Virus record (IMG/VR): IMGVR_UViG_3300029923_000008
Span: 1-64,000 of that record
Strand: one strand, 5' to 3'
Source: a virus
Length of the DNA: 64,000 bases
The position numbers and the translations under genes are program-made. This document shows positions 10,993 to 61,980 of this stretch, piece by piece. The notes under the pieces were generated by a model. It saw nothing but the letters and a program-made list of their open reading frames with translations. It did no database searches and had not been told where the DNA came from. Within the stretch, counting starts at the first letter, position 1; each line of letters opens with the position of its first letter.

Positions 10993-12792
10993 ATGGAAAC
11001 AAAATTAAGAAAAGACATTCCCGAAGAGTTTAAATGGAATTTGACTCATATTTACGAAAATAGATCAGATTTTGATAGTGATTGTAATAAAATTGTTGGA
11101 TTCACTGAAAAAATTGAATTATTTAATGGAAAATTATCAAATCCAAAAGAACTGAAAGATTGCTTAGATTTAATGGGAGATGTAAGAAAAATGATCACAA
11201 AACTTTTTTGTTATGCTAACATGTATTTAGATCAAGAGCAAAATAATGAAGATGCAGATAAGTTGGTTCAGAAAGTGAAAGATGCGTCTGTTAAAATAAG
11301 TTCAAAATGCGCATTCATCACTGATGAAATTATTCATTTTGATGATGAAACAATTTCTATAATATTATCAAATGATGATTTGAAGCTTTATCATTTTGAT
11401 ATTAAAGATACCTTAAAAAATAAGAGTCATATTTTATCTAAAATAGAAGAAGAACTTCTTACTAAAATCTCGGATGTTTTTTCTACGTCAAGTGATGTTT
11501 ATACTATATTCAAAAATACTGAACTGAAATATTCAACTGTAAAATTATCTAATGGAGAAGATGTTTTGGTTGATGATAGGAATTATAGAGTATTAATTGA
11601 GTCAAGTAATAGAGATGACCGTAAATTAGTTTATGATACTTTCTATAAGACATTTGATGAATATAAGAACACACTATCTAAATTGATGTTCAAATTTATT
11701 AAGAGTTCAACAACAGGAAGTAAAATTAGAAATTATAAATCATCTTTAGATCAATCTTTATCATCAGAAAATATTCCAACATCTATTTATGACGGATTGA
11801 TTGAAAACGTTTCTAATAATCTTGATAAAATGTTTGATTATCTTAATCTTAGAAAAGATATTTTAGGATATGAAGATTTGAATTATTATGATTTGTATAA
11901 TCCTATTGTTGATGATGTTGATTATGAATATTCGTATGATAACGCTAAGAAATTACTTATTGAATCTACTGCAATTCTTGGTGAAGAATATACAGATATT
12001 ATGAATAGAGCAATAAGTGAAAGTTGGATAGATATTTATCCAAATCAATTTAAAGATACTGGTGCTTATATGAATGGTTCTGTGTATGATGTTCATCCTT
12101 ATATTCTATTGAACTATAAAGGTAAATATGATGATGTTTCAACTATGCTTCATGAAGCTGGACACGCTGGACATTCTGTTCTAAGTAATGAAAATCAACC
12201 ATACAATAAAGCAAGTTACTCAACATTCATTGCTGAAATTGCATCAACAACAAATGAGTTATTGCTTCTTAATCATATGCTAACTACAACAGATGATAAG
12301 CAATTGAAAATTTTCTTGTTGAATAATTATATTGAACATTTTAGGACTACTGTATTCAGACAAACCATGTTCGCTGAATTTGAAAAATTTATGTATGAAT
12401 CAGTAGAAAATGAAGAGGTTCTAACATCATCAATGATGAATGATAAGTATTATGAATTACTTAAAAAGTATCATGGTGAAGATAAAAACATCATAAAAAT
12501 TGATAAACTATATGCAAATGAATGGTCACGTATTCCACATTTCTATTATGATTTTTATGTATTTCAATATTCAACTAGCTTTATTTCTGCAGTTATTCTT
12601 TCGACTAGAATTTTGAATGGAGATAAAGAACAATTAGAAAAATATATGGAATTATTGAAATCTGGTGGTAGTGATTATCCTGTAGATTTGCTTAAAAAAG
12701 CTGGTATTGATTTGACTGATGGAGAATGTTATAAAGATGCATTCAAACAATTCTCTGATTATTTAGAAGAATTGAAATCTTTGCTTAAATGA
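10993..12792 (+). CDS. pepF: Oligoendopeptidase F (M3B metallopeptidase)
   Basis: A 599-residue zinc peptidase that cleaves short peptides in the cytoplasm; full length for PepF. The active site is MLHEAGHAGHSVLS near residue 385 (HExxH), followed by the third ligand Glu in TFIAEIASTTNE about 25 residues later. The N-terminal EFKWNLTHIYEN and the C-terminal QFSDYLEEL are also typical. The start is two bases after the previous gene, and the stop overlaps the next start. A complete PepF is unusual in a phage; it may recycle peptides or process a specific substrate (inference). Confidence 0.93.
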   Translation: METKLRKDIPEEFKWNLTHIYENRSDFDSDCNKIVGFTEKIELFNGKLSNPKELKDCLDLMGDVRKMITKLFCYANMYLDQEQNNEDADKLVQKVKDASVKISSKCAFITDEIIHFDDETISIILSNDDLKLYHFDIKDTLKNKSHILSKIEEELLTKISDVFSTSSDVYTIFKNTELKYSTVKLSNGEDVLVDDRNYRVLIESSNRDDRKLVYDTFYKTFDEYKNTLSKLMFKFIKSSTTGSKIRNYKSSLDQSLSSENIPTSIYDGLIENVSNNLDKMFDYLNLRKDILGYEDLNYYDLYNPIVDDVDYEYSYDNAKKLLIESTAILGEEYTDIMNRAISESWIDIYPNQFKDTGAYMNGSVYDVHPYILLNYKGKYDDVSTMLHEAGHAGHSVLSNENQPYNKASYSTFIAEIASTTNELLLLNHMLTTTDDKQLKIFLLNNYIEHFRTTVFRQTMFAEFEKFMYESVENEEVLTSSMMNDKYYELLKKYHGEDKNIIKIDKLYANEWSRIPHFYYDFYVFQYSTSFISAVILSTRILNGDKEQLEKYMELLKSGGSDYPVDLLKKAGIDLTDGECYKDAFKQFSDYLEELKSLLK

Positions 12793-17673: not shown

Positions 17674-18351
17674 ATGAAACATGTTAAAATGTATGAAGAA
17701 AATAGTTATTCTATAATATTATTCAAAAATGAAAAAGAATTGAAAACATTATTATTAAAAAATGAAGATTTTTCAAAAGGTGATGTATTTCACGGTATAA
17801 TTGATGTTTTATATGAAGATTATTCATCTGATATTAATTATGATGATTTTTTAAATTTGGTAAAAGAAAAATATGGAACATTACCGTGTTTTTGTGTTCT
17901 TCTTGGTAACTATAATGGACAAGTTTTTAATGGCGGGCATCTACAATATTATGATAATGGATATGCCAGTTCTAAATCAAAAGGTTATTATAACCGTGGT
18001 GGTAATCCTTATAATAACGTTGATATTCATGAAAAAATGATTATTTTGTTTGAAAAATTAAAAATATCAGAACATATTTCTAAAAAATTAGTATATGATG
18101 CATATTCAATAATGAAAGATTTTAATTTTGATAGTGTTAATTTTAATTGTTACAATGGAGATAACGGAGAATATAGTGAGTATGATAATGATAAAAATGA
18201 AGATTTAGATAAATTAGATCAAAGATGGTATGATATAAATGAAGATTTTATTGATGAATTTAATAATTATCTAAAATCATTAAATTTAGAAGGAGATTCA
18301 ATATCAAAATTAATAGAGTTATCAAACAAAATAAATAAATACAATATATAA
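17674..18351 (+). CDS. DMP19-like protein with bookend tags
   Basis: A 225-residue protein with leader MKHVKMYEENSYS and tail INKYNI. The middle contains GQVFNGGHLQYYDNGYA near residue 95, the characteristic segment of the DMP19/DUF4375 family, in which a Neisseria member acts as a DNA mimic that binds a repressor. Whether this one mimics DNA is not known, but its C-terminal half is strongly acidic. A terminator overlaps its stop. Confidence 0.7.
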   Translation: MKHVKMYEENSYSIILFKNEKELKTLLLKNEDFSKGDVFHGIIDVLYEDYSSDINYDDFLNLVKEKYGTLPCFCVLLGNYNGQVFNGGHLQYYDNGYASSKSKGYYNRGGNPYNNVDIHEKMIILFEKLKISEHISKKLVYDAYSIMKDFNFDSVNFNCYNGDNGEYSEYDNDKNEDLDKLDQRWYDINEDFIDEFNNYLKSLNLEGDSISKLIELSNKINKYNI

Positions 18352-18382
18352 AAAGAGATGATTAATATCATCTCTTTTTTTA
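18351..18382 (+). terminator. Rho-independent terminator
   Basis: AAAAGAGATGAT and complement followed by T7, ending the tagged-protein operon and isolating the downstream polymerase gene. Confidence 0.85.
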
Positions 18383-18452
18383 TATGTCAGTTTAATATTT
18401 TTTATTTAAACCAATTATAAAATAATTGATATAATAAGAAACAATAAATATA

Positions 18453-19814
18453 ATGACAGCACAAGAAAAGAGAGATAAAATAGCAGAATTAAAAACAAAA
18501 ATTGATGTAACTAAGGCTGATTATGATAGAGCAAAAGCAATGCAATTAGCTTTGAAATTGGTTATTAACGGTACATATGGAGCATTCGCTCATCCTAAAT
18601 TTGTATTGTCAAATTCTCATATTGCAAATGCTATTACTGCTCAAGGACGTGATGTTATAAATTATATGCTTAAAAAAATAGAAACATATTTCTATAAAGA
18701 ATGGCACTTAGATGTAAAGACTCATCAACTACTTGGATTAGAATATATTGCTGAAAAAGATGGTAGTTTTTATTTATTAGATAGAAATGGAGATAATATT
18801 CATTATAAATATGAATCAGTTGATAATTTATTAGAAAAATTGAATTACTATCGTAATGATTTAGTTGAAGATAAAAAAGAATTAAATGGTTATAATGTAT
18901 TATTTAGTAGATTTATTCATGATTTCTCTAATGTAACTCAGTTACCAAAAGATGTTCCAATTACAATTTACGGCGATACTGATTCATTATATATTTCATT
19001 CGCTCCTATGATAAAGTCATGTGGATTTAATGGAGATGAATTAGACTTCATTCTTCATATGGATAGAGTTTTTATAGAAAAAAAATATAATGGTTGGCTA
19101 GATGAATATGCTGCAAGATATGGAGTTAAGAATATACACAACTTTGAATTAGAAACAATTAATAGATCAGCATTACACATACAAAAAAAGCATTATATAA
19201 ATAATGTAGCTTGGGAAGATGGCTTATTTTATGAAAGTATGAGTTATTTTTATCCAAAAGGTGTTGAAATTGTTAAATCATCTACCCCTCCATTTGTTAG
19301 AGAAAATATTTATGAGTTTTTGAGATATATATTTTCTAATCCTAATAATTTGAATATTAGAAAAATATTACTAATTGTGAAAGATTTGAAAAAACAATTC
19401 ATGATGGCTAATATTGAAGATATTAGTATGACTTCAAGTTGCACTAATTATCCAATTAAAGTTATTGATGATGTTACTGATGTTTTATGTGTTAAGGGTG
19501 CTCACTTTGCAGTTAAAGCTGCAGCTTTACACAATTACTTATTAAATAAAAACTCTGAATATAAAACAAAGTATGATAATATTAGAGGAGGACGTATAAA
19601 ATATTTTTATTGTAATCATGTTAAAAATAGCGTATTTGCATATCAAAGAGGATTATATCCATATGAAATATGTGAAAAAGAAGGTGTTAAAATAGATTAT
19701 GATGAACAATTTGATGTGACAATGCTTCACATCGTAAATAGGTTTCTTGAACCAATTGGATTACCTACAATAAATAAAAGATTGTCAGTTTTGAATTCAA
19801 TCTTTCAATTTTAA
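18453..19814 (+). CDS. DNA polymerase family B, C-terminal part (palm/thumb) of a split enzyme
   Basis: This 453-residue protein carries only the second half of a family-B polymerase: motif B KLVINGTYGAF (residues 35-45) and motif C ITIYGDTDSLYIS near 172-184 with the two catalytic Asp residues, then the thumb. The 3'-5' exonuclease and motif A (DxxSLYP) are absent, and no gene in the window encodes them. The frame begins with a charged helix just before motif B, so the break lies between motifs A and B. Split gp43 genes are known in some T4-like phages. A terminator precedes it, so the two halves are not co-transcribed here. Confidence 0.88.
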   Translation: MTAQEKRDKIAELKTKIDVTKADYDRAKAMQLALKLVINGTYGAFAHPKFVLSNSHIANAITAQGRDVINYMLKKIETYFYKEWHLDVKTHQLLGLEYIAEKDGSFYLLDRNGDNIHYKYESVDNLLEKLNYYRNDLVEDKKELNGYNVLFSRFIHDFSNVTQLPKDVPITIYGDTDSLYISFAPMIKSCGFNGDELDFILHMDRVFIEKKYNGWLDEYAARYGVKNIHNFELETINRSALHIQKKHYINNVAWEDGLFYESMSYFYPKGVEIVKSSTPPFVRENIYEFLRYIFSNPNNLNIRKILLIVKDLKKQFMMANIEDISMTSSCTNYPIKVIDDVTDVLCVKGAHFAVKAAALHNYLLNKNSEYKTKYDNIRGGRIKYFYCNHVKNSVFAYQRGLYPYEICEKEGVKIDYDEQFDVTMLHIVNRFLEPIGLPTINKRLSVLNSIFQF

Positions 19815-19888: not shown

Positions 19889-20734
19889 ATGAAAAAAATA
19901 ACAGGAGATAAATTTCAAGAATCATTTAAAAATGATTTAAGTAAAGTTAATAAAAATACAAATCATGAGCTTAGCTTTGATTTGTTTGGTGTATCACATA
20001 AAGAAGTTAAAGATATAGATTCTAAAAATAAGATAAATAATATTGATAGAAAAATAATTAAATGTGAATATATTAAATTAAAAAAAATAAAGATACCAGG
20101 ACTTAATTGCTGTAGTGCATATCGAGGTGATTTATTAATAACTAATTTTAATAACTTTATAATTGCTGATGTTAAAAATTATTATGATATTAATAATATT
20201 ATGAAATTTCCTAAAGATTTAAATAAAAAAAATTTTTTTAAAGGAGTGGATTCTAATATTAAACCATTAATTTTTTGTGAATTATTGAATATACCTATAT
20301 TAAATAATTTATTTAAAAGTGAATCTGACTTCAATAAAATAAAAAACAATTTTAGTTTATTGACAAAAATTGGAAAAATAACTAGAGAAAAATGTATTGA
20401 TATAATATCATTTTCGGAAATTGGTTATGCATATAAAGAAAAACAACTTGAGAATATTAAATATTTTTTATCAAAATCTGATAGTAGTGATGATATTTTA
20501 TTTTTAAAAAAATTAGATATAAATAATTTTGTTAATTGTGATTACATAACAGTTAAGATGAGAATAGATGATAATGGTTATACTTATATTTATTTTTGTG
20601 ATGATAAAGATGAATGTATTTATGTATTATCACAAAGAAAATATAACAAAAAACACGGATTTGTTGGAAATTGTTCTTTTTTATGCAGAAATATTGTACC
20701 AGAAATTGTCGTTGATTTGTCATCTTATGCATGA
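19889..20734 (+). CDS. Unknown protein
   Basis: A 281-residue Lys/Asn-rich protein starting MKKITGDKFQESF. Cysteines cluster in GLNCCSAYRGD and near the end (GNCSFLCRN). No domain recognised. It lies between the polymerase fragment and a DNA methyltransferase on the same strand. Confidence 0.65.
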   Translation: MKKITGDKFQESFKNDLSKVNKNTNHELSFDLFGVSHKEVKDIDSKNKINNIDRKIIKCEYIKLKKIKIPGLNCCSAYRGDLLITNFNNFIIADVKNYYDINNIMKFPKDLNKKNFFKGVDSNIKPLIFCELLNIPILNNLFKSESDFNKIKNNFSLLTKIGKITREKCIDIISFSEIGYAYKEKQLENIKYFLSKSDSSDDILFLKKLDINNFVNCDYITVKMRIDDNGYTYIYFCDDKDECIYVLSQRKYNKKHGFVGNCSFLCRNIVPEIVVDLSSYA

Positions 20735-20780: not shown

Positions 20781-21527
20781 ATGCTAGAATTTAATAAAAT
20801 ATATCAGATGGATGTATTAGAAGGATTAAGAAAACTAGATGATAATAGTATTGATGCTGGAGTATCTTCACCACCATATAATAAACTTGGACTCATGAAA
20901 GGAAAAAAGCAAAAAGGTGGAGATTGGGATGGATATATCACATATGATAATTTTGAAGATAATATGCCTGAAGATGAGTATCAGAAATGGCAAATAGAAA
21001 TATTAAATGAAATTCAGAGAGTATTAAAACCTGGTGGCTCATTTTTTTATAATCATAAAAATAGAAGATATGATAAAACAGAGTATTCTCCATATGAATG
21101 GGTTAGTAAATCAAATATAAATATTTATCAAACAATTATTTGGGATAGAAAAGCTGATGTTAATAATTCTTTATATTTTTTTCAACCAGTATATGAATTA
21201 GTATATTGGTTAACAAAAGATAATAAAAAAGCACCAATTTTCAATAAAAGAGATTTGATTGAACAAAAAAGTATTTGGAGAATATCACCAAAAATGAATA
21301 TTCCTCATCCAGCTCCTTTTCCAGAAGAATTAGTTGAACATTGTATAAATGCAACTACTAAAGAAGGAGATGTAGTATTAGATCCTTTTATGGGAGTAGG
21401 CACAACTGCTCTTGTTGCAAAAAGATTAGGTAGAAAGTATATCGGTTTTGATATATCAGGAGAATATATTAATATTGCTGAAAAAAATGTAGAGGAAGGC
21501 AAAATTAGAAAAAAAAATGAAATGTAA
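20781..21527 (+). CDS. DNA methyltransferase (beta-class, N4-cytosine or N6-adenine)
   Basis: A complete 248-residue enzyme. The catalytic SSPPYNK is at residues 29-35 and the AdoMet-binding DPFMGVGTTALVAKRLGRKYIGFDIS lies near 205-230, the motif order of beta-class enzymes. The QRVLKPGGSFFYNHK segment is also typical. The specificity cannot be read from sequence. No restriction gene is adjacent. The next gene's start overlaps its stop. Confidence 0.9.
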   Translation: MLEFNKIYQMDVLEGLRKLDDNSIDAGVSSPPYNKLGLMKGKKQKGGDWDGYITYDNFEDNMPEDEYQKWQIEILNEIQRVLKPGGSFFYNHKNRRYDKTEYSPYEWVSKSNINIYQTIIWDRKADVNNSLYFFQPVYELVYWLTKDNKKAPIFNKRDLIEQKSIWRISPKMNIPHPAPFPEELVEHCINATTKEGDVVLDPFMGVGTTALVAKRLGRKYIGFDISGEYINIAEKNVEEGKIRKKNEM

Positions 21528-49078: not shown

Positions 49079-49153
49079 TTATTTAATTTTTTAATTTTAA
49101 GTTTATTAATTAACTTATATATAAAATTAAATTAGTCCAAATTGATTTTTTTG

Positions 49154-49225
49154 TATGCCTAGAAGGACTCGAACCTTCAACTCATCATCCGTAGTGATAC
49201 GTGTTATCCATTACACTATAAGCAC
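49154..49225 (-). tRNA. tRNA-Arg(ACG)
   Basis: A 72-base cloverleaf folds by eye: acceptor GTGCTTA/TAGGCAT, D stem GTGT/ACAC, anticodon stem TATCA/TGATG with loop CTACGGA (anticodon ACG), and T arm GAAGG-TTCGAGT-CCTTC. CCA is not encoded. ACG reads CGN codons after A-to-I editing by TadA. Confidence 0.85.
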
Positions 49226-49239
49226 ATGTAAGTATTTAC

Positions 49240-49725
49240 TCATTTATTTTTAATGACTTGATTAATGTTTTTTAATTTTTCTTTTCTTGAGTATGCTAAT
49301 TTGTATTTCATAACTCCTTCTATTTTATTATTTAAACATTGTTCCATTAAATATTCAGATTGATGTATTACATATTCTTTAGAACATTTTTCAATACTAT
49401 CTCCATAATGATTAGTATCAAATCCTATCATCCAATAATTATCTAATTTTTTATAATTATCTATTGTTACATCACCATCAATTTCTAAATTATCAATCCA
49501 TTCTAAAAATGATTTAGAATCAAAAAATTGACCATATGTTAATCCTCCATGTACACTTATTGTATTCATATCATCATATGAAACTCCATATGATGGATGA
49601 TTATTAGGTATTAATATATAACCATTACCCCATCCGAATTCCATTTTTAATGAAAATGTACTTAGTAGAGGTAAATTTTTAGTGATATAATTCTCAATTA
49701 CTAATGTGTAAATTCCGTATTTCAT
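49240..49725 (-). CDS. Unknown protein with C-terminal RKEKL tag
   Basis: A 161-residue protein with a Trp/Gly/Tyr-rich body (GWGNGYILIPNNHPSYG, ISVHGGLTYG, WMIGFDTNHYGDS) resembling a phage hypothetical family with a GYxxIP...HGG pattern. The tail AYSRKEKLKNINQVIKNK is of the RKEKL set. It has its own full Bacteroidota promoter and sits between the Arg tRNA and the coiled-coil genes. Confidence 0.7.
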   Translation of the reverse strand: MKYGIYTLVIENYITKNLPLLSTFSLKMEFGWGNGYILIPNNHPSYGVSYDDMNTISVHGGLTYGQFFDSKSFLEWIDNLEIDGDVTIDNYKKLDNYWMIGFDTNHYGDSIEKCSKEYVIHQSEYLMEQCLNNKIEGVMKYKLAYSRKEKLKNINQVIKNK

Positions 49726-49745
49726 GTTGATTTTTTAAATAAAAA

Positions 49746-49775
49746 CAAAGATACACAATTTTTTTGTATATTCAA
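49746..49775 (-). promoter_or_regulatory. Bacteroidota-type promoter
   Basis: TTG-N19-TATCTTTG on the minus strand, 20 bases before the 49725 start codon. Confidence 0.75.
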
Positions 49776-49788
49776 TATTAAAAATTTT

Positions 49789-50169
49789 TTATTGTTGAAT
49801 AACTACATTATATGTAATTCCACCAGATTTCTTTTTTATTGCGTTTTTTAATTCTTCACTGTCTTTAATATCTTCCAAATTATCATTTTTAATATCATCT
49901 TTGATTTTACTAATATCAGAATCAACATCCTTTAATTCTCCTTTTATTTCACCTACATTACCTACTATATTATCAACATCAGTATCAACATTTTTTATAT
50001 TTTGTTGTATGTCATAAATAATATTTTTTATTTCACTAACTTCATTTGTTATTTGTGCAGTTATTGTGTCTATTTTTTTAGATAACTCTTCTATCTTTGT
50101 AATAATATCATCAGTTCTTAATGATATATTTTCTTGCTCCGACTTAATATTTTCTACTAAATTATCCAT
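49789..50169 (-). CDS. Coiled-coil protein with 21-residue repeats
   Basis: From ATG 50169 it encodes 126 residues starting MDNLVENIKSEQENIS, which aligns with the start of the next protein (MNKLVEKFKSSQEKF) and so fixes the start over an in-frame ATG at 50199. The body has Val/Ile-Asp repeats of 21 residues (KNVDTDVDNI, KDVDSDISKI), a long coiled coil. No membrane segment. Paralogue of the 50241 protein. Confidence 0.65.
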   Translation of the reverse strand: MDNLVENIKSEQENISLRTDDIITKIEELSKKIDTITAQITNEVSEIKNIIYDIQQNIKNVDTDVDNIVGNVGEIKGELKDVDSDISKIKDDIKNDNLEDIKDSEELKNAIKKKSGGITYNVVIQQ

Positions 50170-50240
50170 ATCATTTGTCTTTATGTATAAATAGTACAAA
50201 TTATATTAAAATTTTTATACAATGATAATTTTAATGTAAA

Positions 50241-50780
50241 TTATTTTTTTTCTTTTTCTATATTATCTTGAATGTTATTTATGTCAAAGTCTACATTTTT
50301 TAAATCTTCTTGTATATTATCAACATGATTTTGTATTTCATTAACGTCTGTGTCAGCATACTTTAACTCAATATCTATATCATCAACATGACTTTTTATG
50401 TCACTAACATCAGTATCTACATCTTTTAATTCAATATCAATATCAACTACATGAGTTTTTATGTCATCAACATCAACATTTATATGCTCTGTCATAGCTT
50501 CTATTTTTTCGGATAATTCTTCAATCTTTGATATTATTGCATCAGTTCTACTTCCACTTATCTTAGCAATATATCCTAAAACTGGTAATGCTACTCCTTG
50601 AAAGAAAACTGATACTAAATATTGCATCCATGCAACTAAACCTGATGGCTGACTAAAAAATAATGGAAATATAACTAATATTGTAATTATCCAAAACATT
50701 GTCATACTAGATAATGAATCTGATAAAAATATTGCAAATTTTTCTTGTGATGATTTAAATTTCTCGACTAATTTATTCAT
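50241..50780 (-). CDS. Membrane-anchored coiled-coil protein, DUF1003-like, with 21-residue repeats
   Basis: A 179-residue protein. Two hydrophobic segments (MFWIITILVIFPLFF and LVSVFFQGVALPVLGYIAKIS, residues 28-70) resemble the DUF1003 membrane domain. A coiled coil with about four 21-residue repeats (DVDDIKTHVVDIDIELKDVD and variants) follows. It probably places the coil at the membrane; paralogue of the 49789 protein. Confidence 0.6.
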   Translation of the reverse strand: MNKLVEKFKSSQEKFAIFLSDSLSSMTMFWIITILVIFPLFFSQPSGLVAWMQYLVSVFFQGVALPVLGYIAKISGSRTDAIISKIEELSEKIEAMTEHINVDVDDIKTHVVDIDIELKDVDTDVSDIKSHVDDIDIELKYADTDVNEIQNHVDNIQEDLKNVDFDINNIQDNIEKEKK

Positions 50781-50846
50781 ATTTTTTTTATTTATATATA
50801 AATAGTGATAATTATATAAATAATATAAATTGTATTAAATATTTTT

Positions 50847-50931
50847 TGTGGTACTAGTTGGGCTCGAACCCACAACCTCCGAAGAGATCAGTTTTACATA
50901 CTGACATGACTACCTGTGTCATATTAATCAC
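50847..50931 (-). tRNA. tRNA-Tyr(GTA)-like, possibly degenerate
   Basis: Anticodon arm TCAGT-ATGTAAA-ACTGA gives anticodon GTA. D stem ATGAC/GTCAT encloses ACAGGTA, and a class II variable arm CTC-TTCG-GAG is present, all fitting tRNA-Tyr. The acceptor stem pairs poorly (about four of seven) and the T stem has a mismatch, so it may be decaying. Canonical Tyr genes lie at 51564 and 52984. Confidence 0.55.
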
Positions 50932-50940
50932 ATATTTTTG

Positions 50941-51065
50941 TGGTAGCAGATGGACTCGAACCATCAACTTCTGAGACATCGGCCCAGCACTCTATCCTTC
51001 GCTCGTTTCAAATTATTTATTCTAGTTTCATAATTATCCCCTTTGTGCTTTTGAGTTACACTACC
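50941..51065 (-). tRNA. tRNA-Ile(GAT)-like gene with a 60-base D loop
   Basis: Acceptor GGTAGTG/TGCTACC pairs completely (with wobbles). D stem ACTC/GAGT encloses 60 bases rather than the usual 8-11; the 3' part GGATA looks like the normal D-loop end. Anticodon arm CTGGG-CCGATGT-CTCAG gives GAT, and the T arm is GATGG-TTCGAGT-CCATC. Position 33 is C and 37 is G, both unusual. Total 125 bases. It may contain a small insertion or be a fused pseudogene. Confidence 0.5.
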
Positions 51066-51078
51066 TTGTTGTTTATTG

Positions 51079-51157
51079 TACTGCCGAAGGGACTTGAACC
51101 CTCATACACCAATTACCTTGTTAATGACTGGATATAAGCCAGTGGGGATACGACAGT
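51079..51157 (-). tRNA. tRNA-Ile(TAT)-like gene lacking a normal D arm
   Basis: Acceptor ACTGTCG/CGGCAGT and T arm GAGGG-TTCAAGT-CCCTT pair well. The anticodon arm ACTGG-CTTATAT-CCAGT gives TAT. Only seven bases separate the acceptor from the anticodon stem, so there is no room for a D arm; 23 bases lie between the anticodon and T arms. The total of 79 is near normal. Confidence 0.5.
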
Positions 51158-51170
51158 GTGTTTTTTATTG

Positions 51171-51247
51171 TTGGTGAAGTGGGAATTGAACCCACATGTG
51201 ACCAATTAACCTTTCTACTACTTATCAGGCAGAGGGTATATTCACCA
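51171..51247 (-). tRNA. tRNA-Ile(GAT)-like gene lacking a normal D arm
   Basis: Acceptor TGGTGAA/TTCACCA and T stem GTGGG/CCCAC are perfect. The loop CTGATAA is the canonical Ile GAT loop on a four-bp CTGC/GTAG stem. As in the 51079 gene, only eight bases precede the anticodon stem and 22 follow it, including AAGGTTAATTGGT, which is shared in similar form by that gene. Confidence 0.5.
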
Positions 51248-51258
51248 ATGTTATTTAG

Positions 51259-51332
51259 TAGTCCTGGTGAGACTTGAACTCACGACCTCCATCTTATCAG
51301 GATGACAATCTAACCGACTGATATACAAGACT
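51259..51332 (-). tRNA. tRNA-Ile(GAT)
   Basis: Canonical 74-base cloverleaf: acceptor AGTCTTG/CAGGACT, D loop AGTCGGTTA, anticodon arm TCATC-CTGATAA-GATGG (GAT), T arm GTGAG-TTCAAGT-CTCAC. No encoded CCA. Confidence 0.9.
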
Positions 51333-51399
51333 ATTTTAGTTTATTTTTATTAATCATAACATACTATTAGTATGATACTAGTCATAATAATAAACTCTG

Positions 51400-51469
51400 T
51401 ACCGAATATGAGGTTCGAACTCATTTGGATTTCCTTATGAGAGAAATCTCTTTTCCACTAAGCTTCGGC
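51400..51469 (-). tRNA. tRNA-Met(CAT), elongator type (or Ile2)
   Basis: Anticodon arm TTTCT-CTCATAA-GGAAA (CAT) and T arm ATGAG-TTCGAAC-CTCAT are clear; acceptor GCCGAAG/ATTCGGT pairs at six of seven, and the D arm is short. It lacks initiator features. A CAT anticodon could also be an Ile tRNA modified by TilS; sequence alone does not settle it. Confidence 0.75.
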
Positions 51470-51482
51470 ATAATGTTCATTG

Positions 51483-51556
51483 AGGCCAAGGTGGGACTCG
51501 AACCCACACAATATAGTTTTGCAGACTATCCCTTTATTCCATTCGGGCACTCGGTC
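51483..51556 (-). tRNA. tRNA-Cys(GCA)
   Basis: Acceptor GACCGAG/CTTGGCC (one mismatch), D stem CCC/GGG, anticodon arm ATAGT-CTGCAAA-ACTAT (GCA), T arm GTGGG-TTCGAGT-CCCAC. The discriminator base is U, the identity element of tRNA-Cys. Confidence 0.88.
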
Positions 51557-51563
51557 ATTTTTG

Positions 51564-51645
51564 TGGAAATAGAGGGACTCGAACCCACGAACTTGTGAAA
51601 GAACTGATTTACAGTCAGTTGCAATTGCCACTATGCGATATTTCC
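51564..51645 (-). tRNA. tRNA-Tyr(GTA)
   Basis: An 82-base class II tRNA: acceptor GGAAATA/TATTTCC, D stem GCA/TGC, anticodon arm ACTGA-CTGTAAA-TCAGT (GTA), a 14-base variable arm, T loop TTCGAGT, discriminator A. Confidence 0.88.
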
Positions 51646-51655
51646 ATTATCTTTG

Positions 51656-51741
51656 CGGTTCTGAGGAAAGTCGAATTCCCTATATCCCTTACGAGAAGCC
51701 TGAGTGACAGTCAGGTACACCAGCCGTTATGCGCCAGAACC
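51656..51741 (-). tRNA. Class II tRNA with Asp anticodon GTC
   Basis: An 86-base tRNA: acceptor GGTTCTG/CAGAACC, D stem GCAT/GTGT, anticodon arm CCTGA-CTGTCAC-TCAGG. The loop is that of tRNA-Asp, yet there is an 18-base variable region with a TCTC-GTAA-GGGA hairpin, as in Ser/Leu tRNAs, and discriminator G. A normal class I Asp tRNA lies at 52821. Its 5' end overlaps the 3' end of the HNH gene. Confidence 0.7.
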
Positions 51742-52551
51742 ATTTTTATTTTTTATTTCATAATGTATTTCTGTGTGACAATTTTTACACACTAACATAC
51801 ATTTATCAACTTCTTTTTTTAATCTTTCATATGAATAAGATTTTGCACTTATTCCAAAATCTTTTTGAGTAGGATCTTTATGATGAAAATCAAATACATC
51901 TATACATTTATCATATCCACACCTTTCGCATTTTCCTCCTTTATATTCAACAAGTTTCCTTTTTTTATCTTTTCTCCAACTAATAACATTATTTACAATA
52001 TCATTTTTTCTTTTTATTTTATACTCTTCTTTAGATAATTTTTCTTTTTTATTTATAATTAAAATTTTAGATATTTGATATCTACCAATATTGAATTTTT
52101 TAGATACTTTTCTTGTACTTTTACATTCATCATAGTATTTTTGCATTTCAATAACGTCATCATTATTAACGTTTTCATATATTTTACAATAATTATTTTT
52201 TTTATAATTACCATCATTGATATTATTTAATCTGCATATTTTTTTAATTTTATCTAAAGATAATTTAGTTTTTTCTATTATTTCTTCATATGTATTACCA
52301 TTTATTCGATATTCAATAACTTTTTTAAAAATCTCATCAGATATCTCATCACCAAAATCTATATTTGGTATATTTTTTAATTTTTTTAAATTTGATAATT
52401 TTGTGTTTTTTTTATTTAATTCAATATTATTATATAATTTTTTACAATGATAAGATATTGTACCTTTTGAACAATTTAATAATTCTGATATTTCATTGTA
52501 TGTTTTTCCTTCTTTTCTTAATGATAATATTTTAGTTTTAATGCTTTCCAT
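51727..52551 (-). CDS. HNH endonuclease, likely homing, inserted in the tRNA array
   Basis: A 274-residue protein. The N-terminal half has helix-turn-helix-like segments (TYNEISELLNCSKGTISYHCKKL; STRKVSKKFNIGRYQISKIL), probable DNA recognition. The C-terminal HNH domain reads CERCGYDKC, FDFHHKDPTQKDFGIS (catalytic HH) and CMLVCKNCHTEIHYE, with two Cys pairs for zinc. The last codons GSGA and stop lie inside the 5' end of the 51656 tRNA, so insertion is adjacent to a tRNA gene. Free-standing homing endonucleases of this kind spread between related phages. Confidence 0.88.
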   Translation of the reverse strand: MESIKTKILSLRKEGKTYNEISELLNCSKGTISYHCKKLYNNIELNKKNTKLSNLKKLKNIPNIDFGDEISDEIFKKVIEYRINGNTYEEIIEKTKLSLDKIKKICRLNNINDGNYKKNNYCKIYENVNNDDVIEMQKYYDECKSTRKVSKKFNIGRYQISKILIINKKEKLSKEEYKIKRKNDIVNNVISWRKDKKRKLVEYKGGKCERCGYDKCIDVFDFHHKDPTQKDFGISAKSYSYERLKKEVDKCMLVCKNCHTEIHYEIKNKNGSGA

Positions 52552-52631
52552 AATTTATTTATATTTTTATTGTATATATAAAAATATATAATATTAAAAA
52601 AGATTAAAGTTTAAAGTTAATCATTTATTCG

Positions 52632-52703
52632 CGGGAGTGGGGAATTGCGACATCCCAACACTTTCGTTAACAGCGAAACGCTCTACCTTTGAGCTACACT
52701 CCC
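52632..52703 (-). tRNA. tRNA-Asn(GTT)
   Basis: Acceptor GGGAGTG/CACTCCC, D arm GCTC-AAAGGTA-GAGC, anticodon arm TTTCG-CTGTTAA-CGAAA (GTT), five-base variable loop, discriminator G. The T arm GGGAT-GTCGCAA-TTCCC is unusual: the standard TTCRA is replaced. Confidence 0.82.
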
Positions 52704-52709
52704 TTTTTG

Positions 52710-52797
52710 CGCACTGGATAGGATTCGAACCTACGTTGAAGATTACTCTTACTGGTTTAACAGACCAGACTTTTCGACCGACTAAAGCAACCAATGC
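52710..52797 (-). tRNA. Class II tRNA with Asn anticodon GTT
   Basis: An 88-base tRNA: acceptor GCATTGG/CCAGTGC, D arm with GTCGGTCGA typical of Ser tRNAs, anticodon arm CTGGT-CTGTTAA-ACCAG (GTT), variable arm with AAGA-GTAA-TCTT hairpin, T arm GTAGG-TTCGAAT-CCTAT, discriminator G. The body is Ser-like; one change (C35 to U) would turn a Ser GCT loop into this one. Confidence 0.7.
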
Positions 52798-52820
52798 ATT
52801 TTTAATTTTTTGATAATAAG

Positions 52821-52893
52821 CGGGATATACGAGATTCGAACTCGCTCCGTGCACCGTGACGGGGTGACATCTTAACCATTTGACCTATATCCC
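52821..52893 (-). tRNA. tRNA-Asp(GTC)
   Basis: Acceptor GGGATAT/ATATCCC, D stem GTC/GAT, anticodon arm TCACC-CCGTCAC-GGTGC (GTC, with C33), T arm GCGAG-TTCGAAT-CTCGT, discriminator G as required for Asp. Confidence 0.85.
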
Positions 52894-52901
52894 ATTTTTT
52901 G

Positions 52902-52973
52902 TAATGCGTATGAGAGTTGAACTCATCTTGCTAGGTTGAAAACCTAGAGTACTTTCCGATATACGAACGCATC
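52902..52973 (-). tRNA. tRNA-Glu(TTC)
   Basis: Acceptor GATGCGT/ACGCATT, D stem GTA/TAC, anticodon arm CTAGG-TTTTCAA-CCTAG (TTC), T arm ATGAG-TTCAACT-CTCAT. Confidence 0.88.
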
Positions 52974-52983
52974 GTGTTTTTTG

Positions 52984-53066
52984 TGGGAGCAGCCAGATTC
53001 GAACTGACGACCTAAAAGGTTACAAAATTTACAGTTTTGCGCCTGACCAATTTGAGCATTACTCCC
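52984..53066 (-). tRNA. tRNA-Tyr(GTA), second copy
   Basis: An 83-base class II tRNA: acceptor GGGAGTA/TGCTCCC, anticodon arm CAAAA-CTGTAAA-TTTTG (GTA), variable arm of 14, T loop TTCGAAT, discriminator A. Confidence 0.85.
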
Positions 53067-53109
53067 ATTTATTATTCATTATCTAGTATTTCAAAGAGCA
53101 TTTAAAAAT

Positions 53110-53149
53110 AAAAAACTCAGTTCTTATTTTTAAGAACTGAGTTTTTTTA
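53110..53149. terminator. Strong hairpin terminator
   Basis: AAAAAACTCAGTTCTTA and its complement with a T7 run, in the gap before the Tyr tRNA. Symmetric, so it could act on either strand. Confidence 0.85.
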
Positions 53150-53173
53150 TTATTCACATAATAATTTTTTAAC

Positions 53174-53308
53174 TTATCCAGTTCTTCCTACATTATTTTC
53201 ATCATCATTAATATAATCATTATTAATCATATTAATACATATCTCTTCCATATTGTAATTAATATTACAATTGCGATAAATGCTGTATATGTTATTAATG
53301 TTATTCAT
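53174..53308 (-). CDS. Tiny Asn-rich protein of 44 residues
   Basis: Starts MNNINNIYSIYRNCNIN and continues MEEICINMINN. The motif YRNxxIN..EE.C also occurs in the tiny protein at 53797 (MYRNLYINEEMC), so the two appear to be diverged copies. A terminator hairpin follows. Confidence 0.5.
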   Translation of the reverse strand: MNNINNIYSIYRNCNINYNMEEICINMINNDYINDDENNVGRTG

Positions 53309-53341
53309 GATATTTACTTTTAATTTATTATTTTTAAAAAA

Positions 53342-53410
53342 ACTATTTTGAGTTTAGCTGCTAGTGTACTCGCATTGTCCCCATTACCAGTGAGGTGCTG
53401 TTCAATATAG
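53342..53410 (-). other. tRNA-Thr(GGT)-like element without normal D and T arms
   Basis: Ends CTATATT and AAAATAG pair (six of seven). The anticodon-like arm CCTCA-CTGGTAA-TGGGG has a perfect Thr GGT loop. Only eight bases precede it and no TTCRA T loop is present; a GAGT/ACTC stem with a 14-base loop takes its place. It may be a pseudogene or a tRNA-like RNA. Confidence 0.4.
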
Positions 53411-53421
53411 TTTTTTAATTG

Positions 53422-53493
53422 TTGCGCAGGCTGGACTCAAACCAGCGTTCTCAAGGTTATGAGCCTTGCGGGGTATCACTTCCCTACCGCGCG
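53422..53493 (-). tRNA. Initiator-type tRNA-fMet(CAT)
   Basis: Acceptor CGCGCGG/CTGCGCA pairs except for the first pair, C1-A72, the mismatch that marks bacterial initiator tRNAs and permits formylation. D stem GGG/CCC is purine-11:pyrimidine-24, also initiator-like. Anticodon arm CAAGG-CTCATAA-CCTTG (CAT); T arm GCTGG-TTTGAGT-CCAGC. The three G-C pairs usual in the initiator anticodon stem are only partly present. Confidence 0.85.
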
Positions 53494-57670: not shown

Positions 57671-58708
57671 TTATAATAAATGTGGTCTTGCTTCAGCAAT
57701 TCCAGCATTTGTTACTTGATACCATTTAGGGTGATATTCAGATAAATTTTTTGCACCTCCATAAGATAATGCAGAACGAACACCGTTTATTAATCCTTCA
57801 ATTACAAATTTGACTCCTCCTTTAAATGGAATTGTTGTTGACTCTCCTTCCACATTTCTTTCCGCTTGACCATGAACAGTTTTTGTTTCTAATGATGCAG
57901 AGCCTCTATATCGTTTATATAAGCCATTAGGACTCTCTATAACCTTTCCTGGTGATTCTTCTGTTCCAGCTAATAGTGAGCCTAACATAATAGTAGATGA
58001 ACCTAATGCAAGAGCCTTTGATATATCTCCACTTGTTCTAATTCCACCATCAGCCATAACTGGTACTTTTGCAACATTTAAAATTTCTATTAAACTTGTA
58101 ACATTTGGAACACCAAATCCTGTCTTGATTCTAGTTGTACAAAGACTTCCGCCACCAATACCACATCTTAGTCCATCAGCTCCCCAATTTTGCAAATCAA
58201 TTGCGGCTTCTGCAGTTGCAATATTACCTGCAATTATATCCACTCCTAAATTCAATCCTTTTATTTCTTTAATCGCTTTTTTGACATTTATGTGATGTCC
58301 ATGAGCAACATCAATAAGAATTACATTTACTCCAGATTCTATTAATGATTTAGACCTTTCTAAAAAATCTCCATTTGAGCCTACTGATGCCATTATTGGA
58401 ATATTCTGTACATTAATAAAAGGATTATATAAACTATAATCAATTAATTTTTTTAATTTTTTGATTTCATCAACTTGTTCTTCAATAGTCATGAATCTAT
58501 GAATACATCCTACTCCTCCTAATTGAAACATTTTAAACGCCATTTCATGCTCACAAACGGTATCCATAGGTGATGCTACCAATGGTATCATCAACTCATA
58601 ATTTGTAGATAGTTTTGTTGTTAATGAAATTTTATTTCTATGTTCTACTTCACTATAAAATGGTATAAGTTGAATATCATCATACGTTAACGCTATATTA
58701 TTTGTCAT
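57671..58708 (-). CDS. IMP dehydrogenase / GMP reductase-like enzyme
   Basis: A 345-residue TIM-barrel enzyme of purine metabolism. TYDDIQLIPFYS, ASPMDTVCEHEMA, the catalytic-Cys loop GIGGGSLCTTRIKTGFGVP (Cys near 190), the phosphate site VMADGGIRTSGDISKAL and the flap LYKRYRGSASLETK are all visible. It lacks the CBS (Bateman) domain of normal IMPDH and has GMP-reductase length (about 345). IMPDH makes XMP from IMP; GMP reductase converts GMP to IMP. The flap does not settle which. It lies in the middle of the FVSNSSSSSF cluster. Confidence 0.88.
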   Translation of the reverse strand: MTNNIALTYDDIQLIPFYSEVEHRNKISLTTKLSTNYELMIPLVASPMDTVCEHEMAFKMFQLGGVGCIHRFMTIEEQVDEIKKLKKLIDYSLYNPFINVQNIPIMASVGSNGDFLERSKSLIESGVNVILIDVAHGHHINVKKAIKEIKGLNLGVDIIAGNIATAEAAIDLQNWGADGLRCGIGGGSLCTTRIKTGFGVPNVTSLIEILNVAKVPVMADGGIRTSGDISKALALGSSTIMLGSLLAGTEESPGKVIESPNGLYKRYRGSASLETKTVHGQAERNVEGESTTIPFKGGVKFVIEGLINGVRSALSYGGAKNLSEYHPKWYQVTNAGIAEARPHLL

Positions 58709-60457: not shown

Positions 60458-61096
60458 TTATATTAATCTGTCAATTCCTATTGCAAATCCAACTCCTCCA
60501 TCATATTCTCCTCCTCCACAAATCTGTTTTGATGATCCTAATTTTTCGCAAGTTATTTCAAATCCCTTACCATTTTTGTAATAATCAAGTCCTCTTTTTA
60601 CATCATTGTTAATAACATAATCATCAATATTATCAGTGAAATTTTTTGTTAATAATTTCATTGCTAAATGTTGTAAGTTTGCTCCTTCTGATAGATAATC
60701 ATGAGTAGGATTTAATATTTCAACTCCAAATTGAGTGAATTGACGAAATCTTCCATGCTGTGGTTTTTCTCCACGAAAGCATTCACAAACATAGAATAAT
60801 AATACATCTTTTTCATTTTTGTATGTTGTTTTAGATAGTTTTTGAACAACTGCAGTATATTCAGGAGCTAAGCATAAATCTCTATCTCCTCTATCTTTAA
60901 AATTGTACATCATATTGTTATTTTCTTCTCCTACCTTATTTTGAAACAATTCTTGAAATTGAATGATTGGTATTTGAATTTCCTGAAAATGATATTCATC
61001 AATTAATATTTTAATCATTGAATTTATTAATTCTCTTTTTTCTCCTCCGACTAAAATTCTAGTTCCTTTATAACAAGTTTCTTTTATTATTTTCAT
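60458..61096 (-). CDS. Minimal HisRS-like class II synthetase core
   Basis: A 212-residue protein resembling the catalytic core of histidyl-tRNA synthetase. Motif 2 is FYVCECFRGEKPQHGRFRQF with TQFGVEI, the His-binding loop is RGLDYYKNGKGFEI, and motif 3 is GGGEYDGGVGFAIGIDRL at the very end. Full HisRS has about 420 residues; the insertion domain is mostly missing and there is no anticodon-binding domain. Similar stand-alone cores exist as HisZ-type regulators or paralogues with other roles. It could charge a tRNA, activate histidine, or do neither; no tRNA-His was found in the window. Confidence 0.78.
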   Translation of the reverse strand: MKIIKETCYKGTRILVGGEKRELINSMIKILIDEYHFQEIQIPIIQFQELFQNKVGEENNNMMYNFKDRGDRDLCLAPEYTAVVQKLSKTTYKNEKDVLLFYVCECFRGEKPQHGRFRQFTQFGVEILNPTHDYLSEGANLQHLAMKLLTKNFTDNIDDYVINNDVKRGLDYYKNGKGFEITCEKLGSSKQICGGGEYDGGVGFAIGIDRLI

Positions 61097-61980
61097 TTAT
61101 TGATTTCACTCCATTCTTTAAGTAAACTACCATATTTCCAACATTGTACAAGAATTGATTGAGCTGCATAAAACATTGATCCTGATATTCCTAAAAAATC
61201 CATTTCAAATGATGTTTTACTTGCAATTTCTTTTAGTAATTCAATATCAATTTCTTTACTTTTTGATTTTGCTTCTGATTGCATTAATTTAGCCCATCCT
61301 TCAGCATATTCAAATACACAATTTCCGTATGAATCTTTATTTTTTAACTTCCAATCATCCCAATCTTTTTGATTTAATAGTTCAATATCAATTCCTTTTA
61401 TTTTTTCTTTATACTTTCTTTTAACTTCAATATCTTTTTTGTGTTCTTCAATTCTTCTTTTTATAGATTTTTCCTCAGATATTTTTAATTTTTTTTCATA
61501 CTCAATTTTAGTTTTATCATCATATTCATCATCACATATAGGACCAATTTTAGCCCATTCCATCAAATGAGCATCATTATAATACTTATATAAATTATTG
61601 AGATTTGTACTTTTGTCAATTAAACAAATTATACCATTAAAATTGAAACTGCAAATTACGTTGTTTGTATTTGAGAAATTTTTTGCTGTTTCAGAAGTGT
61701 GATTAAAATCAGAACCACACATAACATCCATTCTCACACCTGGTGTAGACTGACTAATAATTTCTAAAATTTGTTGTTCTTCATAACTAATTTTTATGTT
61801 ATTTAGAACTTTTAATTTTAATTTTCTTGGAATGTTATTATTAACACTGAAAGTTATATACTCACCATATTCGCATTCATGATAACTTGAAAATTTTATA
61901 TTAGTTACAATAAGATATTTAATAAAAAGATAATTTTTATCTTTTTTGTCTTTTATTGTATATGTGAAATATTTATTCAT
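61093..61980 (-). CDS. Unknown protein
   Basis: A 295-residue protein with a beta-rich N-terminal half, a Lys/Glu-rich helix (residues 165-200) and a helical C-terminus (YGNCVFEYAEGWAKLM, GSMFYAAQSILVQCWKYG) that resembles a recurrent phage hypothetical domain. Overlaps the HisRS-like start by four bases, so it is co-translated with it. Confidence 0.65.
   Translation of the reverse strand: MNKYFTYTIKDKKDKNYLFIKYLIVTNIKFSSYHECEYGEYITFSVNNNIPRKLKLKVLNNIKISYEEQQILEIISQSTPGVRMDVMCGSDFNHTSETAKNFSNTNNVICSFNFNGIICLIDKSTNLNNLYKYYNDAHLMEWAKIGPICDDEYDDKTKIEYEKKLKISEEKSIKRRIEEHKKDIEVKRKYKEKIKGIDIELLNQKDWDDWKLKNKDSYGNCVFEYAEGWAKLMQSEAKSKSKEIDIELLKEIASKTSFEMDFLGISGSMFYAAQSILVQCWKYGSLLKEWSEINK

Follow-up and report, generated by a model that had tools for sequence, protein, structure and literature searches.

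The 64,000-nucleotide (nt) stretch analysed here (positions 1 to 64,000 of the IMG/VR virus record IMGVR_UViG_3300029923_000008; hereafter the window) carries an open reading frame (ORF) for the C-terminal half of a split T4-type family B DNA polymerase (the C-half; Table 1). Its product matches Pfam DNA_pol_B (E = 3.6e-14), PHROG 262 (6e-48) and PHROG 1918 (3e-44). Motif B begins after 34 residues with Lys35, which is invariant in alignment A5, and is followed by motif C and by a KKxY motif at amino acids (aa) 245–248. Neither the exonuclease nor motif A is present in this ORF, in agreement with the initial annotation, made from the letters alone, which had read the gene as a polymerase split between motifs A and B and starting with its own ATG after a terminator. 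The start and terminator are also borne out: a bidirectional terminator-like hairpin separates the C-half from the upstream gene (2 such hairpins found against 0.1 expected by chance; folding z = -6.2), and an MT(A/x)xEKR start is conserved in kin. A promoter candidate at 18426-18454 (11/12 matches) was rejected as the driver of this ATG because its -10 box and the start codon overlap.

The first half had been expected outside the 64 kilobases (kb), far away or elsewhere in the genome. A PF00136 search of the whole record (143,429 bases) found the N-terminal polymerase part nowhere inside the window and located it in a 493-aa ORF on the other strand, 41 kb past the right window edge (the N-half; Table 1). 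This half is therefore outside the window and elsewhere in the genome, as foreseen, and is not missing from it. The two halves lie 85.4 kb apart, and the N-half ends in the first fingers helix, as a family B fragment ending before motif B should. Their contents are complementary. Pfam matches in the N-half are to the exonuclease domain (PF03104, 6.9e-10) and to the beginning of DNA_pol_B (1.9e-9); exonuclease motifs I, II and III are at DIE 98, GWNFIGYD 189 (Asp196) and YNAVD 300 (Asp304). The exonuclease carboxylates are invariant in alignment A6. Scanning relied on a narrower alignment, since the one spanning all N-halves was too divergent. Motif A (Asp394), the fingers residues Arg464 and Lys468 and the first fingers helix are also in the N-half, and the catalytic set of motif A aspartate, motif B lysine and motif C DTD is complete only across both proteins, with Asp394 in one and Lys35 and Asp175/Asp177 in the other.

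The position of the break is defined by comparison with RB69 gp43, in which Arg482 and Lys560, on opposing antiparallel helices of the fingers, are separated by 77 residues (a spacing derived from the residue numbers 482 and 560). The N-half ends 29 residues past the arginine equivalent to Arg482. Arg-to-Lys spacings in split pairs (63 in the window phage, 76 in Aeromonas phage 44RR, 58 in cyanophage S-CREM2) are similar to those in intact enzymes (77 in RB69, 51 in S-B68, the sister of S-CREM2, and 51–54 in intact cyanophage enzymes); no residues were lost, and the chain was cut at the fingers tip. With the break at this point, catalytic and deoxynucleotide (dNTP)-binding residues are supplied by both proteins. 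In structure models the N-half closes with a 41-residue helix and the C-half opens with a 42-residue helix; the N-half model matches RB69 gp43 with E = 3e-21 and a template modeling (TM) score of 0.65–0.69.

We compared the arrangement of the halves in 16 records of a huge-phage clade, the window's included. Every huge-phage relative is split, and none was found to hold an intact polymerase. The halves are 86 kb apart in a 330-kb contig and 95, 81, 112, 171, 95, 95, 108 and 132 kb apart in others; among named phages the spacing is 132 kb in LR756502, 101 kb in LR745206, 281 kb in LR756504 and 221 kb in Lak-A2. In LR756501 it is 115 kb on the assumption of a circular or permuted genome, and 618 kb in the record as printed. 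Opposite strands are occupied in 14 of the 16 records, the exceptions being LR756500, whose pieces lie only 10 kb apart on one strand, and IMGVR 023174_33. The eight smaller phages examined have adjacent halves on one strand, at distances of 3.5 kb (Chryseobacterium MA9V-2), 2.4 kb (Sphingomonas PAU), 2.0 kb (Tenacibaculum PTm1), 1.2 kb (Tenacibaculum pT24), 1.0 kb (Vibrio 2.058), 0.85 kb (Aeromonas 25), 0.38 kb (S-CREM2) and 0.05 kb (44RR). This range, 49 bp to 3.5 kb, agrees with the earlier statement that T4-like splits are usually close together, and the 85.4 kb in the window phage with its corollary that here the halves must be far apart. The prevalence of opposite strands, together with the C-half's own start behind a terminator, could mean that the separation is regulatory, such that both transcription units have to be on before polymerase forms. 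This would add to a two-protein polymerase rather than replace it, and we regard it as rather improbable, since spacing and relative orientation vary across the clade, down to the single strand and 10 kb of LR756500, as drift would give.

A tree of N-halves (32 rows, with changes counted on starred branches) requires at least three changes between the split and intact states: in Aeromonas phages 25 and 44RR, which group with intact RB69; in S-CREM2, beside intact S-B68; and in a group that joins the Bacteroidetes jumbo phages MA9V-2, PAU, pT24 and PTm1 with the window clade (support 100/100). Long branches in this tree leave the two shallow cases, Aeromonas and S-CREM2, unaffected. On this tree the fingers-tip break has arisen several times independently in related phages. 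All of the Bacteroidetes jumbo phages are split like the window phage but, as given above, keep their halves 1.2–3.5 kb apart on one strand; the PTm1 annotation reads 'intein-containing split DNA polymerase precursor'. Prevotella Lak megaphages and the LR7565xx huge phages resemble the window phage in being split, with halves that are distant in all but one. Lak-A2 and LR756500 differ from it by an additional split intein at motif C. The literature searched contained no account of a split polymerase in Lak or LR7565xx phages. Outside phages, Kelman reportedly described in 1999 a split B-type polymerase of Methanobacterium thermoautotrophicum, which is likewise a family B enzyme from two genes but is archaeal. 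The split polymerase itself is already known, and its functional precedent is the gp43A/gp43B pair of Aeromonas phage 25, whose proteins co-purify and are active (Petrov, Ratnayaka and Karam 2010, as reported in PMC2988022). The Aeromonas 25/44RR proteins share with ours the family, the fingers-tip break and the size of the N-part (498 aa versus 493 aa), and differ in that their parts are adjacent on one strand, separated by 49–850 bp.

The initial annotation had noted that such a break often marks a past homing-endonuclease or intron event. Of these, the endonuclease finds some support in kin. Homing endonuclease genes of PHROG 3339 (E = 1e-90 to 1e-136) adjoin the broken ends in close relatives, starting less than 50 bp from the N-half stop in L024, L028 and L031 and ending next to the C-half start in L011, L013 and L017. 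An endonuclease-like gene stands at the broken end of 18 out of 69 N-half representatives, pointing the same way in 13 of them, and Aeromonas phage 25 keeps the order N-part, endonuclease, C-part. An endonuclease origin of the break is therefore plausible, although the evidence is circumstantial. The intron half of the suggestion fared less well: the broken ends of the window-phage halves gave no Rfam intron match even at E = 0.1. A group I intron lies near the C-half of one relative, L185 (Table 1).

In L014, L017, L019 and others we found a third break, at which a split intein cuts the C-half at YGDTD/S (PF14890, 8.9e-11 in L014). Endonuclease ORFs lie between the intein halves in these relatives, so that their polymerase comes from three genes. 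Dassa is said to have described in 2009 fractured genes with split inteins and nested endonucleases, a layout that fits this motif C break and not the window phage, whose fingers break has no intein. Phage MIJ3 has a fractured gene of the same kind, with a split intein and nested endonucleases (PMC6892783). Since split inteins do occur in this polymerase family, at motif C of relatives and in MIJ3, we considered whether the window-phage halves are joined covalently, by RNA trans-splicing through a split intron or protein trans-splicing through a split intein. This is highly unlikely: the N-half end and the C-half beginning are plain polymerase-like helix, Pfam finds an intein in neither half and Rfam an intron at neither end, and split gp43A and gp43B function unjoined (PMC2988022).

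Both halves are under purifying selection, with ratios of nonsynonymous to synonymous substitution (dN/dS) between kin of 0.10–0.20 for the N-half and 0.06–0.17 for the C-half. Distances between genomes measured on the N- and C-halves correlate (rho = 0.93 over 12 pairs; 0.86 without three jumbo isolates), which fits co-inherited halves. About 90 split N-half ORFs are conserved, all stopping 85–125 aa past motif A. A full-length polymerase elsewhere, which would have made the C-half a redundant fragment, was not found: the window record and the large relatives searched, up to 735 kb, hold no intact family B polymerase, and 11 records searched for PolA and PolIII alpha as replacements gave none. 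A split PolIII has been reported for group 2.2 jumbo phages (PMC7824862) and was not seen with PF07733 in the records searched. The record is incomplete, covering 143 kb of a genome of maybe several hundred kb, which leaves room for another polymerase that replicates the phage while the C-half decays. We give this little credence, as the C-half retains all its catalytic residues under the constraint given above and the large relatives yielded split halves alone, with no polymerase of another family. Least credible is an artefact of the metagenomic assembly that wrongly joined or separated the halves, as they face each other in the same orientation, 81–95 kb apart, in independent contigs of 330, 141 and 130 kb, and complete isolates of related jumbo phages are split as well.

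From the two halves and their motifs, the selection on them, their distance and conservation, and the lack of another polymerase in the records searched, we infer that a huge tailed phage very probably produces its replicative gp43-type family B polymerase as two proteins, which would assemble into an active enzyme with the active site formed in trans. The ancestral gene was broken in the loop at the fingers tip, at a break that a homing endonuclease probably occupied or made in the ancestor. The two fingers helices, antiparallel neighbours in intact polymerases, probably re-pair non-covalently and would bring Asp394 and Arg464/Lys468 of the N-half together with Lys35 and Asp175/Asp177 of the C-half. 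The break is ancient in the window lineage, with the halves still neighbours in smaller relatives; rearrangements in the huge-phage clade have carried them apart, mostly onto opposite strands. Several observations weigh against this account. The best match of the C-half model in the PDB is RB69 gp43, but with a weak TM of only 0.36, and the model is poor round motif B, with a predicted local distance difference test (pLDDT) score below 50 at residues 25–61; this is the part that would contact the missing partner. The record is a 143-kb fragment, and an intact polymerase could sit in the missing part of this phage. As to the origin of the break, no homing endonuclease was found at either broken end of the window record, and endonuclease-like genes also occur at the unbroken end in 8 of the 69 representatives, none in the same direction. 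The difference between the two ends (Fisher p = 0.049; same-direction count p = 1.3e-4) comes from related loci, which makes the test weak.

A separate lead comes from the C-half genes of relatives, many of which carry an interruption immediately ahead of motif B; hairpin inserts next to this motif break the frame in about 19 relative lineages. The frame of 18 distinct sequences runs to ...NALQLA-L, meets an insert of 38–44 nt and resumes at KLVLNGSYG; a second site lies 6–7 residues further on (Table 1). The two sites correspond to Ala33/Leu34 and Gly40/Ser41, next to motif B. TAG recoding as the cause of the stops before motif B was rejected, as the DNA shows hairpin inserts. At the first site the take-off codon (CTT or GCT) specifies the same residue as the codon that ends the insert (CTA, or GCA/GCT) in 18/18, and a stop codon stands 0–1 codon past take-off in 18/18; in L183, read separately, there is no stop directly after take-off. 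Edge codons at the second site are Ser TCT/TCA (L161) and Gly GGT/GGT (L177, L188). Insert lengths represent every value modulo 3, which argues against frameshifting and for hopping or removal, and the near-identical genomes L187 and L192 differ by one G in the insert. Breaks near motif B were also seen in L173, L178, L181 and L186.

The inserts contain a hairpin. In nine AT-rich relatives a hairpin of the C5...G5 type occurs at just one place per genome, which coincides with the insert in 8 of the 9; the exception is G019, whose insert has C4...G4 and whose C5...G5 hairpin lies elsewhere. A second long stem-loop of the coding strand lies directly 5' of the insert, where the 48 nt upstream have a folding energy of -17.9 kcal/mol versus -4.3 kcal/mol in gapless relatives (p = 1.7e-6; the gap group includes a few second-site or unclassified rows, which tends to lessen the difference). 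Covariation is seen in both helices, with 11 pairs changed on both sides versus 5.2 in shuffles, and pairing is 89.5% versus at most 52% when the helices are slid. A collection-wide scan with the site pattern gave 19 matches, 16 of them in the C-half gene; a wider second-site pattern matched many unrelated contigs, and no count was drawn from it. In the sequences inspected the essential lysine has no start codon before it, which makes it unlikely that the tail is expressed separately.

Take-off and landing codons that match, a gap between them, a close stop and a hairpin in the gap, as in T4 gene 60, are all found in these relatives, and programmed ribosome bypassing appears the likeliest reading of the inserts; excision of the gap at the RNA level is possible instead. 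We lean slightly towards a huge-phage clade whose polymerase consists of two or three separate proteins and in which many C-half genes would need a programmed ribosome hop. None of this is a property of the window gene, which is the uninterrupted form and reads straight through MQLALKLVINGTYG; the record has no C5...G5 insert-type hairpin.

The C-terminal SIFQF of the C-half may be a clamp-binding peptide, which we assume from its resemblance to the gp43 C-terminus. Two genes follow the C-half, and the methylase is found downstream of it in relative L014 too. Elsewhere the window encodes transfer RNAs (tRNAs), two metabolic enzymes and a putative anti-defence protein (Table 1).

Table 1. Features of the C-half, its partner, the inserts and breaks in relatives (L numbers and named phages), and other genes of the window
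Feature	Position	Strand	Remarks
C-terminal half of split T4-type family B DNA polymerase	18453-19814	+	453 aa; second fingers helix, palm, thumb
Motif B, KLVINGTYG	18555-18581	+	aa 35-43; Lys35 = counterpart of RB69 Lys560
Motif C, YGDTDS	18969-18986	+	aa 173-178; two catalytic Asp; intact, without intein
N-terminal helix, second strand of fingers	18459-18584	+	aa 3-44, unbroken into motif B; AlphaFold model (H3-44), low confidence from residue 25 on
C-terminal SIFQF, candidate clamp-binding peptide	19797-19811	+	likeness to gp43 C-terminus
Intrinsic-terminator-like hairpin, bidirectional	18350-18379		13-bp stem; between upstream gene and C-half
N-half ORF (G000:C1)	105214-106695	-	493 aa; in record, beyond window
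PF00136 match in N-half	105256-105642	-	N-terminal polymerase part
ORF just 3' of C-half	19889-20734	+	281 aa; without Pfam, NCBIfam or PHROG match
DNA methylase (N6_N4_Mtase), downstream	20781-21527	+	6e-44
First-site inserts, just before motif B			L163, L164, L165, L167, L171, L175, L179, L182, L183, L185, L187, L193, L199, L202, L203, L205, L215
Second-site inserts			L161, L177, L188; 6-7 residues further on
Homing endonucleases of PHROG 3339 and kin at broken ends	L024:6506-8146, L028:6529-8178, L011:3326-4885, L017:1433-2824
Split intein at motif C (YGDTD/S)	L014:1879-5834, L017:2849-5834		also L019, LR756500, Lak-A2, PTm1
Group I intron near C-half of relative	L185:2374-2573		6.9e-10
M3-family oligopeptidase	10993-12792	+	8e-64
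tRNA genes, clustered	49153-53493	-	8-10 genes
IMP dehydrogenase / GMP reductase	57671-58708	-	7.6e-100
C-terminal domain like Tad4, inhibitor of type I Thoeris defence	61093-61980	-	5.7e-20

What is new here is that across a huge-phage clade the halves have been dispersed to genes far apart on opposite strands, that the break recurs, and that some relatives have three polymerase genes. The fingers tip of family B polymerases emerges as a place that is repeatedly cut, and whose pieces drift 80–280 kb apart onto opposite strands while under selection. Such pieces are natural pairs for studying how two chains build one active site, and their ends mark natural places at which to divide a polymerase in order to engineer controllable ones; the splits also mean that annotation of huge phages can miss or misjudge the polymerase.

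T4 gene 60 is, to our knowledge, the one phage gene for which ribosome bypassing is established. If the inserts are indeed bypassed, phages would have a second and widespread case of this type, located in an essential enzyme and using more than one site, and a mechanism studied chiefly in a single T4 gene could be compared across many natural variants.
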